From positions 1 to 10,617 of the forward strand of contig JAJCXU010000501.1 of the NCBI GenBank assembly GCA_029263275.1: a stretch of 10,617 nucleotides of DNA. The letters run 5' to 3'. Each line of letters starts with the position of its first letter. The stretch's first letter is position 1. This stretch comes from Ilumatobacter sp. GTDB lineage: Bacteria; Actinomycetota; Acidimicrobiia; Acidimicrobiales; Ilumatobacteraceae. Below the pieces are notes generated by a model. The model made no database searches and was not told the origin of the DNA. It saw only the letters and a program-made list of their open reading frames with translations. The position numbers and the translations under genes are program-made. This document shows positions 635-7,813 of the stretch, in pieces.

Positions 635-868
635 GTGAGTTTGAGTCGCGACAGGTGTGGTGGAAACTCACCGCAATGTGGCCTCAGGCCTCGTGGTCGC
701 GGAGATTTCTTTGCTCGGGTCGACCACGGACTGGCAGCGCTGGTGCCGATTGCCGTGGCCGTCGCCACGACCAGCGGCGAGGGGTCAGCCGTGAACGCGG
801 TGCGTGACCGTATGACGCTTCTCGGCGAGATTCTGGCGGATGGGGTGACTTATGTGTCGAAACGTTGA
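635..868 (+). CDS. Possible small membrane protein, 77 residues (uncertain)
   Basis: A weakly supported ORF from GTG 635 (GGAG at 620-623, 11 nt upstream) to TGA 868. The first 27 codons have poor GC3 and look non-coding. From about base 717 to the stop GC3 rises to roughly 70%, and the translation has a hydrophobic stretch (HGLAALVPIAVAVA) followed by a soluble tail (TLLGEILADGVTYVS). The pattern loosely resembles Flp-type pilins, and a prepilin peptidase lies divergently next to it. However, the canonical processing context with Glu at +5 is absent. It may be a decayed pilin gene, a real small protein with a later start such as GTG near 741, or chance. The stop codon overlaps the -35 element of the next promoter. 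Confidence 0.2.
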   Translation: MSLSRDRCGGNSPQCGLRPRGRGDFFARVDHGLAALVPIAVAVATTSGEGSAVNAVRDRMTLLGEILADGVTYVSKR

Positions 869-893
869 CAAACAGCGCGAGAGTTCGTAATGT
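865..893 (+). promoter_or_regulatory. Sigma-70-type promoter upstream of the repeat hairpins
   Basis: TTGACA at 865-870, a 17-nt spacer and TAATGT at 888-893. The -35 is a perfect consensus match with optimal spacing, and the -10 fits the TANNNT pattern. Transcription would start near 900 and run rightwards through the two hairpins, antisense to recR if not terminated. No convincing coding sequence follows; the short frame from GTG 892 ends after 35 codons. Confidence 0.5.
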
Positions 894-979
894 GATCGCA
901 ACATCAAGATCGCTTGGGCGGCTCACAGCGACCACACTTTCGACACTGTCGGAGACTGGGTCGATCCGCTCAACACCAT

Positions 980-1044
980 CTGGGGCACTGTTGACGTGAG
1001 TCGGCCCGTCCGCCCGCTACCGACTCATCGAGGCGGTGTCCCAG
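980..1044. repeat. 65-nt structured repeat, copy 1
   Basis: Imperfect palindrome. The lower stem pairs 980-992 with 1032-1044, with G-U-type pairs at 985/1039, 989/1035, 991/1033 and 992/1032. An internal loop is followed by a perfect 8-bp upper stem, TGAGTCGG (997-1004) with CCGACTCA (1020-1027), closing a 15-nt loop CCCGTCCGCCCGCTA (1005-1019). It aligns base for base with copy 2 at an offset of 144 without gaps; flanks outside the 65 nt do not align. Because G-U pairs are used on this strand, an RNA read in the plus direction is a reasonable reading. Confidence 0.7.
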
Positions 1045-1123
1045 AACCCCCGCGACACCGCAACACAACCAGAGCACACAGTTCACCGAGTCAGCGCCGA
1101 GATGGCAGCAGGTTCGCAAAGAT

Positions 1124-1188
1124 CTGAGGCACCAGCGCACCGAATCGGCCCGTCCGCCCGCTACCGATTCGAGGTGTTGGTGCCTCAG
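1124..1188. repeat. 65-nt structured repeat, copy 2
   Basis: Better-paired copy. The lower stem pairs CTGAGGCACCA (1124-1134) perfectly with TGGTGCCTCAG (1178-1188) and extends to 1138/1174 with two G-U pairs. A 2x2 internal loop follows, then the upper stem CGAATCGG (1141-1148) with CCGATTCG (1164-1171). The 15-nt loop at 1149-1163 is identical to copy 1. Relative to copy 1, four pairs change by complementary double substitution (983/1041, 990/1034, 997/1027 and 1000/1024, plus 144), and one T-G pair becomes G-T. It could also act as a roadblock or terminator for recR transcription coming from the right. Confidence 0.75.
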
Positions 1189-1238: not shown

Positions 1239-1858
1239 TCAGGAGGGGGACTCGTCGACGGAGCGCCGGCCTTCGAGGGCACGACCCAGCGTCAACTCGT
1301 CGGCGTACTCGAGGTCGCCGCCCACCGGCAGGCCGCTCGCGATGCGCGTGACGTTCAAGCCGAGCGGCTTGAGGAGCCGACCGAGATACATCGCGGTGAC
1401 TTCGCCCTCGGTATTGGGATTCGTACACAAGATCACTTCGGTGATCTCTTCAGGATCGAGCCGAGCAACGAGCTCACGGATCTTCAACTGCTCGGGCCCG
1501 ATGCCTTCGAGCGGCGACATCGCGCCGAGCAGCACGTGATAGCGCCCGCGGAACTCGCCGGTCTTCTCGATGGCCACGACGTCACGCGACTCTTCCACGA
1601 CACAGAGCACGTGCGTGTCGCGGCTGTCGTCGTTGCAGATCGGACACATGGTCGCCTCGGCGACGTTGAAGCAGCGCTCGCAAAATCGGACTCGCGCCTT
1701 CGCATCCGTGATGGCATGAGCAAGGCGCGCCACATCATCCTCGGGCACCTTCAGCAAGTGGAAGGCAATGCGCTGCGCCGACTTCGGACCGATGCCTGGC
1801 AGCCGGCCGAACTCGTCGATCAACGCCTGAACCGGAGCGGTGTACGTGGTCGATGCCA

Positions 1859-1859
<1 letters not shown>
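1239..1859 (-). CDS. recR: Recombination mediator RecR
   Basis: Full-length RecR of 206 residues, the usual family size. With RecO (and RecF) it loads RecA on SSB-coated gaps. In order: the helix-hairpin-helix region [19 protein letters not shown] (18-36), a four-cysteine zinc site (Cys60, 63, 72, 75), then a TOPRIM domain from about residue 83. The TOPRIM domain includes the acidic VVEE segment, TNPNTEGE (146-153) and the C-terminal [21 protein letters not shown] block (175-195). The start is fixed by a TGATG overlap: the A of the recR ATG is the last base of the dnaX TGA, so translation is probably coupled. The gene is followed at once by a hairpin. No key residue appears missing. Confidence 0.97.
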
Positions 1860-4613: not shown

Positions 4614-6563
4614 GTGAACGAGCCCACACCTGTTCTCCGCGGCCGACGACCGTCGGCCCGATCCCTGACGTCCTCGTCCACCTCCGTTTCGCGGCGGCTC
4701 GGAACGGGGTTCGGGCGGTCGGTCCGGTTCGGTCTGGCATTCGTCCTGATCGGCTTCGTCGGTGCATTCGGCCTCGCGCCCGGTACCGCCCTCGCCGAGA
4801 ACGAGGTCATCAAGTCGGAGCCCGCCGACGGCGCGACGCTGGCCACCTCGCCCGCCGAGATCGTATTCACCTTCACCGAAGAAGTCGGCGAACTCCGCAT
4901 CGTTTCGGTCGAGTGCAACGCCGAGCCGTACATCCTTCCTGCGCCGACATTGAGTGGCAACTCGAGGATGATGACCGTCGAGATTCCTGCGCCGGGCCTC
5001 CCCAAGGGGCTGTGCGTCGCCACCTGGCGGGTCAGCGACGACGACGATGAACCGAACGGCAGCGCGCAGATCTCGTTCTCGATCGAAGCGGATCCGGCTC
5101 CCACAACGGTTGCGGTCGAAACCGACGACGCCACGACGTCCACCTTGGAAGGCACGACCACGACGGACGGAACGGCCACACCCGCCGCAGGGAGTGCCGA
5201 CACATCCGACTCGGTCATCATCGACCTGAATCGCGTCGACACTGGCAAGGGGCCGCTCTGGCTCGGTCGGGTGTTGTCCACGCTCGGCATCGCCGCGGTG
5301 TTCGGCGCACTCATCGTGATCGCGGCGGCATGGCCGGAGGGCGTTGAATACCTCATCACGGTGCGGTTCCTTCGGTCCGCGTGGGTCTTTGCGCTGATCG
5401 GAACACTCCTGTTCACCTCTGCGGCCGCGGCTGCGGTCTCGGGTTCATCGCTCGGGTCTGGCTTCAGCCCTGGGGCGTGGATGGACCTGCTCGACGCCGG
5501 CTGGTCGGGCCGAGCCGCGCTGCTGCGGCTGATCTTCGTCATCGCGTCTGCCTGGGCTGCGTTCCGGCCCGACCGCGTCATCGACCCGGTCACGCAGATG
5601 GCTGCGCTCGGATTGCCCGCGTTGGCCGTGGCGATGATCGGCGTCGGCCGCGTCGACGGCGATCTTGCTGCCGTCGGTGTGCTGCTTGGCATCGCACACG
5701 CGTTGGCCATGGCCGTCTGGGTCGGCGGCGTGATCCTGCTCGCACGGGTCGTGCTGTCGGGTCCCGGCGAAGAGGACCTCGTCCACGCCGTCCGCGGATT
5801 CGCTCGCATCTCGGTGCTCGCGATCGTCGTCACCATCGTCACCGGTCTTGGCCAGATGTTCCGCCTCGATGGCGGCAACCTCTTCAACAACGGCCACGGA
5901 CGGGTCACCGTGTTGAAGGTCGTGTTGGTCGCCGCCATGGTCTTCATCGGGCTGTCGGCTCGCCAATTCGCGCAACAACGCCTCGCGCGCGCCCACGAGA
6001 TGACCGTGCCGATGGCCGACCGGCTCCGGCGCGCCTTCGGTACCGAGGCAGCGATTGGTCTGGTGACGCTGCTCGCGAGTTCGTGGCTGCTCGCGCTCAC
6101 GCCGGTCAACGTCGACACCTCGCCATCGATCGACTATTCGATCGAACGCCGAGTGCAGGTCGCCGACGGTGAAACCACCGTCCTCGACGTCACCGTCAAG
6201 CTCACCAGCGACCGAGTCGGCTTGAACGGCCTCGAAGTGGTCGTCGACGCACCAGCGGACGGCATCAGCGTCCTCGAGGTCGTCTTCACACCACCGGTCG
6301 ACGGCGTCAGTGGCGCCATCGTGCAGCCGGTACCGCTGACCGGAACAGGACGCGCTGTCCGCACCGCCGCGGCAGGTCTCCCCATCGAGGTCGCGGGCGA
6401 CTGGTTGCTCCAGGTCAACGCCGACACGGCCGCCGGCCTCGTGCGCAGTGATCCGATCGCCATCTCCATCGCCACCGTCGACGGCACGGCACCGACGACG
6501 TCGATCACCGTGCCCGAGGCGATTCTCGTCCCGATCGAGACCACCACCTCTGTTCCCAACTAG
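4614..6563 (+). CDS. CopC-CopD-type membrane fusion with a C-terminal beta-rich domain
   Basis: 649 residues. In order: a long charged N-terminus, a signal segment (37-61, ending GTALA), a CopC-like domain (62-157, with KSEPADGATLATSPAEIVFTF), a Ser/Thr/Asp-rich linker (160-205), a CopD-like domain of about eight membrane helices (216-498, including IAHALAMAVWVGGVIL and FARISVLAIVVTIVTGLGQ), and an extracytoplasmic beta-rich domain (505-649) of the type often found after CopD. Characterised CopC/CopD proteins bind copper and take part in its uptake. Here the N-terminal His of CopC is replaced by Glu/Asn and the DGHP motif by DDDEPNGS, so copper binding by this domain is doubtful. Cys101 and Cys134 might form a disulfide or an alternative site. 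The GTG start is the only reasonable one; TAGCCT lies 9 nt upstream. It is convergent with the ligase gene. Confidence 0.85.
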   Translation: MNEPTPVLRGRRPSARSLTSSSTSVSRRLGTGFGRSVRFGLAFVLIGFVGAFGLAPGTALAENEVIKSEPADGATLATSPAEIVFTFTEEVGELRIVSVECNAEPYILPAPTLSGNSRMMTVEIPAPGLPKGLCVATWRVSDDDDEPNGSAQISFSIEADPAPTTVAVETDDATTSTLEGTTTTDGTATPAAGSADTSDSVIIDLNRVDTGKGPLWLGRVLSTLGIAAVFGALIVIAAAWPEGVEYLITVRFLRSAWVFALIGTLLFTSAAAAAVSGSSLGSGFSPGAWMDLLDAGWSGRAALLRLIFVIASAWAAFRPDRVIDPVTQMAALGLPALAVAMIGVGRVDGDLAAVGVLLGIAHALAMAVWVGGVILLARVVLSGPGEEDLVHAVRGFARISVLAIVVTIVTGLGQMFRLDGGNLFNNGHGRVTVLKVVLVAAMVFIGLSARQFAQQRLARAHEMTVPMADRLRRAFGTEAAIGLVTLLASSWLLALTPVNVDTSPSIDYSIERRVQVADGETTVLDVTVKLTSDRVGLNGLEVVVDAPADGISVLEVVFTPPVDGVSGAIVQPVPLTGTGRAVRTAAAGLPIEVAGDWLLQVNADTAAGLVRSDPIAISIATVDGTAPTTSITVPEAILVPIETTTSVPN

Positions 6564-6601: not shown

Positions 6602-7813
6602 TCAGTCGGCGGATGCACCTGCGATGAAGTCGTGGAAGTCGACAGGTGTGGCCACGTCGAGTTGGTCGTAGCGACACTCAGCTGGCGTGACGTCTGGTCG
6701 CCACTGGACGAACGACACGCCGTGACGGAATCGCCCGCCTTCGAGTTGGCCGAACGTGACCTCGGCAACGAGGCCCATCGCGAGCGGGACGAACGAGAGG
6801 TCTTTGCCGGCGTTCCACCGGCTGCCGCCCTGCGTCGACACCACCTTTCGAGATCCAGATCCAGACCCAGATCCAGATCCAGATCCAGACCCAGACCCAG
6901 ACCCAGACCCAGACCCGGTCCCGGTCGTGGCGCGCTGTTCATCCTGCCAGTCCGCCCATCCGCGCCATGGATGATCGACGAGCGCATCGTGCGTCCGCGG
7001 CTCAAGTTCCTCGAGGAGCTCGGCACGTCGGACGACGGAGAACGCCGCCGCAACACCAACCGAATGCATGTCGCCGTCGCGGTCGAACAGGCCGAGGAGC
7101 AGCGAGCCCACCCCGTTGCCGTCCTTGTGCACCCGGTAGCCCGGCACGGCACACAGCGCGGTGCGCTGATGCTTGACCTTGACCAGCGCTCGTTTGGCCG
7201 GCTCGTACGTTCCGTTGACGGGCTTGGCGATGATGCCATCGAGGCCCGCCCCTTCGAAGCGCCCGAACCAGTCGTCGGCGACCGACCGGTCGGTGGTGGC
7301 CGGTGTGACATGGACGACATCGTTGGGTGTGAGCGCATCGACGAGCAACGCACGTCGCTCGATCATTGGACGGTTGACGAACGACTGATCGTCGCGAGCG
7401 AGGATGTCGAACGCAACGAACTCCGCCGGGGTCTCGGCTGCCAACCGGTCGACGCGCGACTTCGCCGGATGAATGCGCTGGAGCAGTGCATCGAAGTCGA
7501 GTCCGTTTCCAGCGCCTTCGGCAACGACGATTTCACCGTCGACGACGCAGCGTTCGGGCAAACCAGCGAGCAACGGTGCGGCCAGTTCGGGAAAATATCG
7601 CGAGAGCGGTTTGAGATTCCGGCTGACCAGTTCGAGCCGGTCCCCATCGCGAAACACGACGCAACGGAACCCATCCCACTTGGGTTCGAAGAGCCAGCCG
7701 TCGCCGTCAGGGATCTTGCGTGCCAACTTGGCAAGCATCGGCTTAACGGGTGGCTGGATGGGGAGATCGAACGGGATGTCGGCAGGTGTCGCTGTGTCCG
7801 ACGATTCGCTCAT
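6602..7813 (-). CDS. ATP-dependent DNA ligase, LigC type
   Basis: 403 residues. Seals nicks through a covalent AMP-lysine. Visible: the nucleotidyl motif EPKWDGFR with Lys45, motif III VVDGEIVV (90-97) and FVAFDIL (132-138), motif IV LDGIIAKP (191-198), motif V VKVKHQRT (211-218), then an OB-fold domain ending with EVTFGQLEGGRFRHGVSFVQWRPD, which matches actinobacterial LigC. There is no fused polymerase or nuclease domain, unlike LigD. In mycobacteria LigC works in end joining and base-excision repair with a primase-polymerase; no such partner is in the window. A (Gly-Ser)11 tract at residues 300-321 sits in the OB-domain loop before SRWNAGKDLSF and accounts for the extra length over the usual 350 or so residues. 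The start ATG at 7813 has no obvious ribosome site; the divergent carboxylase gene begins 44 bases away. Confidence 0.92.
   Translation of the reverse strand: MSESSDTATPADIPFDLPIQPPVKPMLAKLARKIPDGDGWLFEPKWDGFRCVVFRDGDRLELVSRNLKPLSRYFPELAAPLLAGLPERCVVDGEIVVAEGAGNGLDFDALLQRIHPAKSRVDRLAAETPAEFVAFDILARDDQSFVNRPMIERRALLVDALTPNDVVHVTPATTDRSVADDWFGRFEGAGLDGIIAKPVNGTYEPAKRALVKVKHQRTALCAVPGYRVHKDGNGVGSLLLGLFDRDGDMHSVGVAAAFSVVRRAELLEELEPRTHDALVDHPWRGWADWQDEQRATTGTGSGSGSGSGSGSGSGSGSGSGSRKVVSTQGGSRWNAGKDLSFVPLAMGLVAEVTFGQLEGGRFRHGVSFVQWRPDVTPAECRYDQLDVATPVDFHDFIAGASAD
6851..6916. repeat. Hexanucleotide tract inside the ligase gene
   Basis: Eleven tandem 6-bp units, AGAYCC on the plus strand (Y is C or T), 66 bases. 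On the coding strand this gives (GGR TCT)11, i.e. eleven Gly-Ser pairs. Units carry two synonymous glycine codons arranged in blocks, as expected for slippage-driven expansion. Unit length is a multiple of three, so copy-number change keeps the frame and varies only linker length. Confidence 0.95.

Follow-up and report, generated by a model that had tools for sequence, protein, structure and literature searches.

A putative small RNA gene was identified on the plus strand of a 10,617-nt stretch of Ilumatobacter DNA, which was analyzed as a whole and is referred to as the window. With moderate confidence, and judging from sequence, we propose that it encodes a trans-acting small RNA, which would be transcribed from its own promoter between position 865 and about position 1200 and would pair with G-rich partners through a C-rich hairpin loop. 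The RNA apparently represents a new, undescribed family among the small RNAs with C-rich loops.

Hairpin structure and covariation

The elements of the predicted gene and its 3′ neighbor are arranged in the window as follows.
865 to 893, plus strand: promoter with the -35 element TTGACA (865-870), a 17-nt spacer and the -10 element TAATGT (888-893)
887 to 902, plus strand: conserved block GTAATGTGATCGCAAC, covering the -10 element and the probable start site
903 to 979, plus strand: probable 5′ leader, its start site placed from the -10 position only
980 to 1044, plus strand: hairpin 1 with the loop CCCGTCCGCCCGCTA at 1005-1019 and its core CCGCCCGC at 1010-1017, without a T-run behind it
1124 to 1188, plus strand: hairpin 2, the tandem copy, with its loop at 1149-1163 and the weak tail TTGGTTG behind it
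1239 to 1859, minus strand: recR, the convergent 3′ neighbor of the RNA (domains RecR_HhH, RecR_ZnF, RecR_C, and Toprim)

The initial annotation had aligned positions 980-1044 and 1124-1188 without gaps at an offset of 144 and with a common 15-nt loop, which was borne out on the sequence. The compensatory pairs it had named were checked by hand and are all correct, namely G-C to A-T at 983/1041, 1000/1024, and 990/1034, T-A to C-G at 997/1027, and T-G to G-T at 991/1033. The inverted repeat 1117-1148/1164-1195 is, with 32 nt, among the two longest listed for the window. Folding of the plus-strand RNA including short flanks yielded -40.2 kcal/mol for hairpin 1 and -47.4 kcal/mol for hairpin 2, with z-scores of -4.66 and -6.67, and none of 200 shuffles was as good for either of them. 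For the minus strand, the z-score was -1.14 in hairpin 1, equalled by 24 of 200 shuffles, and -4.87 in hairpin 2, equalled by none of 200. Given the conservation in other genomes, a chance origin of the hairpins is excluded on sequence grounds. A protein-coding origin was rejected as well: the minus-strand frame over 970-1428 differs from the recR frame, and the hairpin lengths vary while the pairing stays.

Tandem doubling of the hairpin is known from three genomes of the same genus, which are those of the window, G003 (locus L020), and G004 (locus L077, degraded). The flanks of the two window copies had been described as unaligned, which holds, and a simple recent tandem duplication had been denied for this reason; the pair is a tandem doubling nonetheless. 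At L077 the loops are altered in both hairpins and the promoter score is low, so that the RNA gene looks as if it were decaying in this species.

Covariation was evaluated in alignment A5, the basis of a second covariance model, which consists of 60 distinct rows and 107 columns from 57 of 71 sources. Twelve loci of the genera g11 and g21 near kept rows, L087 (near L086), and L088 (at a contig end) were left out. The consensus comprises 18 pairs, of which 16 show changes on both sides. Pairing was found in 95.5% of 1076 cells (shuffled mean 82.8%), on each of five measures all 500 shuffles fell short of the real alignment, and a shift of the 3′ partners by 1-3 columns lowered the pairing to 28-46%. 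These are compensatory changes beyond chance among homologues, as they characterize a structured noncoding RNA.

The mean majority frequency is 0.75 in the stem columns vs. 0.99 in the loop core CCGCCCGC. Exact copies of the core are present in 57 of the 60 rows (exceptions are both copies of G004 at L077 and L089) and of the whole 15-nt loop in 28, a conservation which is partly ascertained because the first 26 rows came via the loop and the later ones via models containing it. Stem letters that vary freely around a fixed C-rich loop point to a loop that would recognize a partner molecule.

The pair cells of A5 include 95 G-U and 13 A-C combinations; as these numbers swap on the other strand, the plus-strand RNA appears to be the selected one. 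A T-run of at least three within 15 nt behind the stem follows 34 of the 60 hairpins (mirror control 2 of 60), and 26 lack a T-run of three. Behind hairpins 1 and 2, the longest T-runs measure 1 and 4 nt at L020, 3 and 5 nt at L077, and 0 and 2 nt in the window, where a good T-run is missing after both. A poorer tail on the first hairpin of the doubled forms is expected if one transcript holds both. The undescribed structured RNA considered in the initial annotation has thus found support in the covariation of 60 sequences, in the strand-specific G-U pairs and T-runs, and in the conserved promoter and the absence of an Rfam match at the hairpin, which are described below.

Conserved locus and distribution

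In total, 71 loci were fetched and oriented, of which L079 and L088 belong to the same genome. A thiolase gene is located upstream on the strand of the hairpin at 62 loci, recR lies downstream on the opposite strand at 65, and one or both of them adjoin the hairpin at every one of the 71 loci. At L110, recR is located upstream on the hairpin's strand, and at five loci it was not found in the fetched stretch, including L088, which is cut by the contig end. The gap between hairpin and thiolase gene ranges from 82 to 1423 nt (median 222.5), and that between hairpin and recR from -13 to 1193 nt (median 53). Those weak model matches that were fetched sit at the same locus. Nine further matches of the A5 model (L125-L133), which are part of neither model, all carry recR downstream on the opposite strand and GCCCGC within the hairpin; a thiolase gene is visible at three of them, with 1.4-1.5 kb of upstream sequence covered. 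A fixed address with free distances suits an independent gene better than the 3′ end of either neighbor. The initial annotation had looked to a conserved hairpin pair next to recR as the mark of a local RNA; the locus is indeed conserved, but the doubling is limited to the three genomes of one genus.

The window itself is without a thiolase gene. A frame at 3-515 on the minus strand, open at the contig end, resembles type IV leader peptidases (25.5 bits with Pfam PF01478, slightly below its cut-off of 26.5) and occupies the thiolase position, which suggests that the thiolase gene was lost or moved. Further genes in the window code for a copper-related CopC-CopD fusion (4617-6560, plus strand) and an ATP-dependent DNA ligase (6605-7813, minus strand), in which a short DNA repeat at 6848-6928 codes for a tract of Gly-Ser repeats. 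Among the relatives, L099 (G549:C108) is assigned to a different family but shares 86-90% identity over about 3 kb with L092 from the window's family, and may be a contaminant contig.

In the assembly of the window (672 contigs, 70% complete), the core was found with up to three mismatches in two copies at one locus. A set of 99 genomes was formed from the window's own genome and its relatives in genus, family, and order. The 19-mer matched with up to two mismatches in 45 of them and the exact 19-nt core in 19, in single copy everywhere except in the window's genome. Those 19-mer matches outside the family whose flanks were viewed have no hairpin, and the same applies to some inside it (L013, L029, L031).

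The first covariance model was built from alignment A3, consisting of 26 copies gathered via the loop pattern. Since the whole-genome model searches scored just 11-20 candidates per genome, the following counts are underestimates and absences are weak. The A3 model matched 67 of 221 genomes of the family, spanning 15 of 27 genera, 37 of the 79 family genomes with a completeness of 90% or more and a contamination of 5% or less, and 22 of 397 genomes in the order. No A3 match was obtained in those genomes of genus g4 that were listed, most of which measure 1-2 Mb (134 empty genomes are unlisted). The A5 model matched 36 of 397 genomes of the order, 23 of 296 of the class, and 8 of 248 of the phylum, and every class and phylum match lies inside the window's order. 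Most matches on the reverse strand result from reading this palindrome in the other direction, and reverse-strand matches were excluded from the copy counts. The hairpin is usually single per locus. A virus-borne element was rejected, as the exact core was not found in the viral collection.

In addition, an independent sample of 80 loci was drawn by the RecR protein from named contigs. It comprises 30 loci with acidimicrobial, unspecified, or odd titles, which were sorted by hand and include L144, titled Acidobacteria, as well as 50 others from Streptomyces and similar actinobacteria. The neighbor of L210, one of the 30, is as in Kribbella (L160), and this locus is probably misplaced. A strong model match was obtained for one of the 30, L138, whose contig appears to be that of L083, a locus included in the model. 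Weak matches were found at L141, L146, L150, and L153, among which only L146 has the match at the recR end. Two weak matches among the 50 other recR loci were not convincing. A score of at least 16 for promoter and block was reached by five of the 30 (L138, L146, L151, L155, L157) and by none of the 50, and the opposite strand yielded 0 of 80. L151 and L157 possess a hairpin with GCCCGC at its end, L155 kept the promoter block with a different hairpin lacking the loop core, and L159 resembles L157 without the core and with a promoter score below 14. In L134, L135, L140, L142, L143, L144, and L147 the thiolase gene reaches recR with a short gap at most, and no RNA was found in the stretch viewed.

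Some of these loci deserve separate mention. The hairpin of L146, a divergent acidimicrobial copy, contains a run of six C and the sequence CCGCCCG, which comprises seven of the eight core letters; C6 beside CCGCCCG is a possible link to 6C-like loops. In the marine L157 and L159 (Acidimicrobiaceae SP219 and MedAcidi-G3) a longer or different hairpin lies between the thiolase gene and recR, and these hairpins may be divergent variants of the RNA described here.

Promoter and candidate operator

Upstream of the hairpin a promoter of the form TTGACA-N17-GTAAYGTRAYYG was identified, or more fully TTGACA, 17 nt, and GTAAYGTRAYYGNNACA. It is conserved at 61 of the 71 loci, where the score for -35 element and block is at least 15 of 18, whereas none of the 71 stretches reaches this score on its reverse strand or after shuffling; L018, L022, L077, L082, L085, L101, L105, L107, L109, and L111 score below 15. 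The RNA gene would accordingly be equipped with its own promoter. The conservation extends beyond the -10 element to the probable start site, which exceeds the need of a plain promoter. The leader, 2 to about 109 nt long in relatives, is conserved neither in sequence nor in length.

Within the block of the window, GTAAT-n6-GCAAC forms an 11-bp direct repeat (general form GTAAY-n6-GNNAC), i.e., by sequence a GTnAC-like direct repeat with the 11-bp period of MtrA/GlnR-type operators. In the accessible parts of the sources, the MtrA motif is given as a degenerate direct repeat c-G-T/A-n-A-C/T-c with four-base separation (PMC6265350), and the GlnR box of one species as t/gTAAC-n6-Gc/aAAC (PMC10704036). 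As far as these texts go, GTAAY-n6-GNNAC fits both the published MtrA motif (PMC6265350, PMC5650626, PMC13189361) and the published GlnR box (PMC10704036), and MtrA and GlnR would suit the operator-like repeat alike. The targets named in those accessible parts are protein genes, whereas here it would be an RNA gene. A Streptomyces MtrA site also overlaps a -10 element, and repression is proposed for Streptomyces bldD, according to the part of the report that is accessible (PMC5650626). An MtrA model matched proteins in all of eight genomes, with best scores of 270-280 bits and none over the NCBIfam cut-off of 300, and as it also matched 12 of 14 control genomes, it shows OmpR-family regulators only.

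With up to one mismatch, the assembly of the window contains a single block site. Across eight genomes, ten such sites were detected in six genomes, six of them at the RNA and four elsewhere, a number not above chance in view of five reversed-control matches. The four off-locus blocks are located directly before an Rpf-type transglycosylase gene (G064), directly before the gene of an FtsE-like ABC protein (G263; Pfam ABC_tran, FtsE being our own reading), at or directly before the start of an M23 peptidase gene (G019; the start ATG is ambiguous), and beside a divergent gene for a LysM protein (G006; Pfam LysM, its lytic-transglycosylase-like end being our own reading). An exact variant of the block was found at five sites in five of 220 family genomes (reversed control 2): two lie by LysM orthologues from two genera, two by M23 orthologues from one genus, and one inside a coding frame. 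Two of these five had already been among the block sites of the eight genomes, so that seven distinct off-locus sites result, and six of the seven boxes adjoin peptidoglycan or division genes. Boxes resembling GTAAYGAAACYGCAAC were observed beside genes for peptidoglycan hydrolases or cell division at L237-L240, L242, and L243. These boxes form a candidate MtrA-type regulon in Acidimicrobiia, which is suggestive and not proof; the case is one of box placement only, because the off-locus count in the eight genomes does not exceed that of the reversed control.

Proposed function and alternatives

The Rfam search of the window gave no match at E ≤ 1, and at the loci of 14 relatives none was obtained at the hairpin at this threshold, with two snoRNA models matching weakly and far from it; a known Rfam family was rejected for the hairpin on these grounds. 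The comparison with 6C RNA (RF01066) made in the initial annotation is apt as regards the way of working, but membership of that family did not hold up. At E ≤ 1, a 6C match was found neither in the window nor at the loci of the 14 relatives. A search of 15 whole genomes yielded no match over the 47-bit cut-off, with limited power as the control genomes also gave none over it, and weak matches occurred in six of the 15 (best 34.4 bits, E 0.018) and in two of 14 control genomes. In 6C RNA, two hairpins carry runs of six or more C. Like it, the RNA described here is a small actinobacterial RNA with C-rich hairpin loops, and its window form likewise has two hairpins. In contrast to 6C RNA, it has one hairpin in most relatives, a fixed core CCGCCCGC, and a fixed address, and neither loop in the window contains C6. 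The 7-mer CCGCCCG is also present in the 16S decoding region; a link to 16S was set aside, since a 7-mer match somewhere in 16S is likely by chance. The literature search, with subscription literature mostly outside its scope, found no description of the RNA, including in the accessible part of PMC6789036, and turned up no study that deals with small RNAs in Acidimicrobiia.

In the mechanism which we favor, a sigma70-type promoter would be followed by a variable leader and a long plus-strand hairpin with a fixed C-rich loop, which is doubled in the window, probably within one transcript. The small RNA likely ends at the hairpin, which can double as terminator given the U-run behind the stem in many relatives. 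It would act in trans, the core CCGCCCGC pairing with partner RNAs at short stretches rich in G, as the C-rich loops of 6C RNA are reported to do, while the stem would present the loop and stabilize the RNA. In ten genomes of the same genus, the complement of the 15-nt loop with up to one mismatch was found at 11 places, nine of which are the RNA gene itself, and the remaining two (G003:C37 and G009:C199) are not shared. A long complementary target was rejected, as none is conserved in these genomes, and the pairing, if any, would therefore use a short seed. With weaker support, an OmpR-family regulator of the MtrA/GlnR type may bind the repeat over the -10 element and the start and gate transcription. 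This would tie the RNA to cell-wall growth and division, and a site over the -10 element would suggest repression, as proposed for bldD in the accessible part of the Streptomyces work.

The strongest competitor, which we regard as rather unlikely, is that the loop binds a protein as a sponge or scaffold without any RNA pairing. A fixed loop on a freely varying stem, the tandem doubling in one genus, and the lack of an extended conserved complement in the ten genomes would all agree with it. On the other hand, it is without a candidate protein, and most genomes have one copy, whereas sponges often repeat their binding site many times.

The hairpin could also be a mere terminator between convergent genes, with a promoter that serves nothing, which we deem improbable. 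It is G+C-rich like intrinsic terminators, its neighbors are convergent at most loci, and 34 of 60 copies have the T-run; yet 26 do not, the stem is longer with covarying pairs, the loop core is more conserved than this stem, a conserved promoter lies directly upstream, and the distances to both neighbors vary widely over the ranges given above.

That the RNA acts in cis on recR, either as an antisense RNA or through transcriptional collision, is less probable still. The RNA does point into the 3′ end of recR at a median gap of 53 nt, but the gap extends up to 1193 nt, recR stands upstream on the same strand at L110 and was not found at five loci, and the conservation resides in the loop and not towards recR. 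Finally, a DNA element, be it a cruciform site or the palindromic mobile repeat considered in the initial annotation, can hardly be upheld: its two window copies with differing flanks are set against a single locus with the core in the 70% complete assembly instead of many copies at varied loci, an address beside the thiolase gene or recR at 71 of 71 loci, and G-U pairs and T-runs that favor one strand.

Beyond the trans-acting RNA itself, a broader picture can be offered tentatively, as possible and not as probable. An order-wide small RNA of Acidimicrobiales may belong to an MtrA-type cell-wall and division regulon and silence or stabilize many mRNAs via one C-rich loop. It would then be an independently evolved counterpart of 6C RNA which links envelope remodeling to post-transcriptional control. 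A second lineage of RNAs with C-rich loops would help to explain RNA regulation in bacteria without Hfq, a protein which these bacteria are not known to possess. The RNA is directly testable, as its covariance model, its conserved locus, its promoter, and its clear loop are all available. If the MtrA link is true, an RNA arm would be added to a regulator which the accessible part of the literature connects to cell-wall growth and division (PMC6265350).
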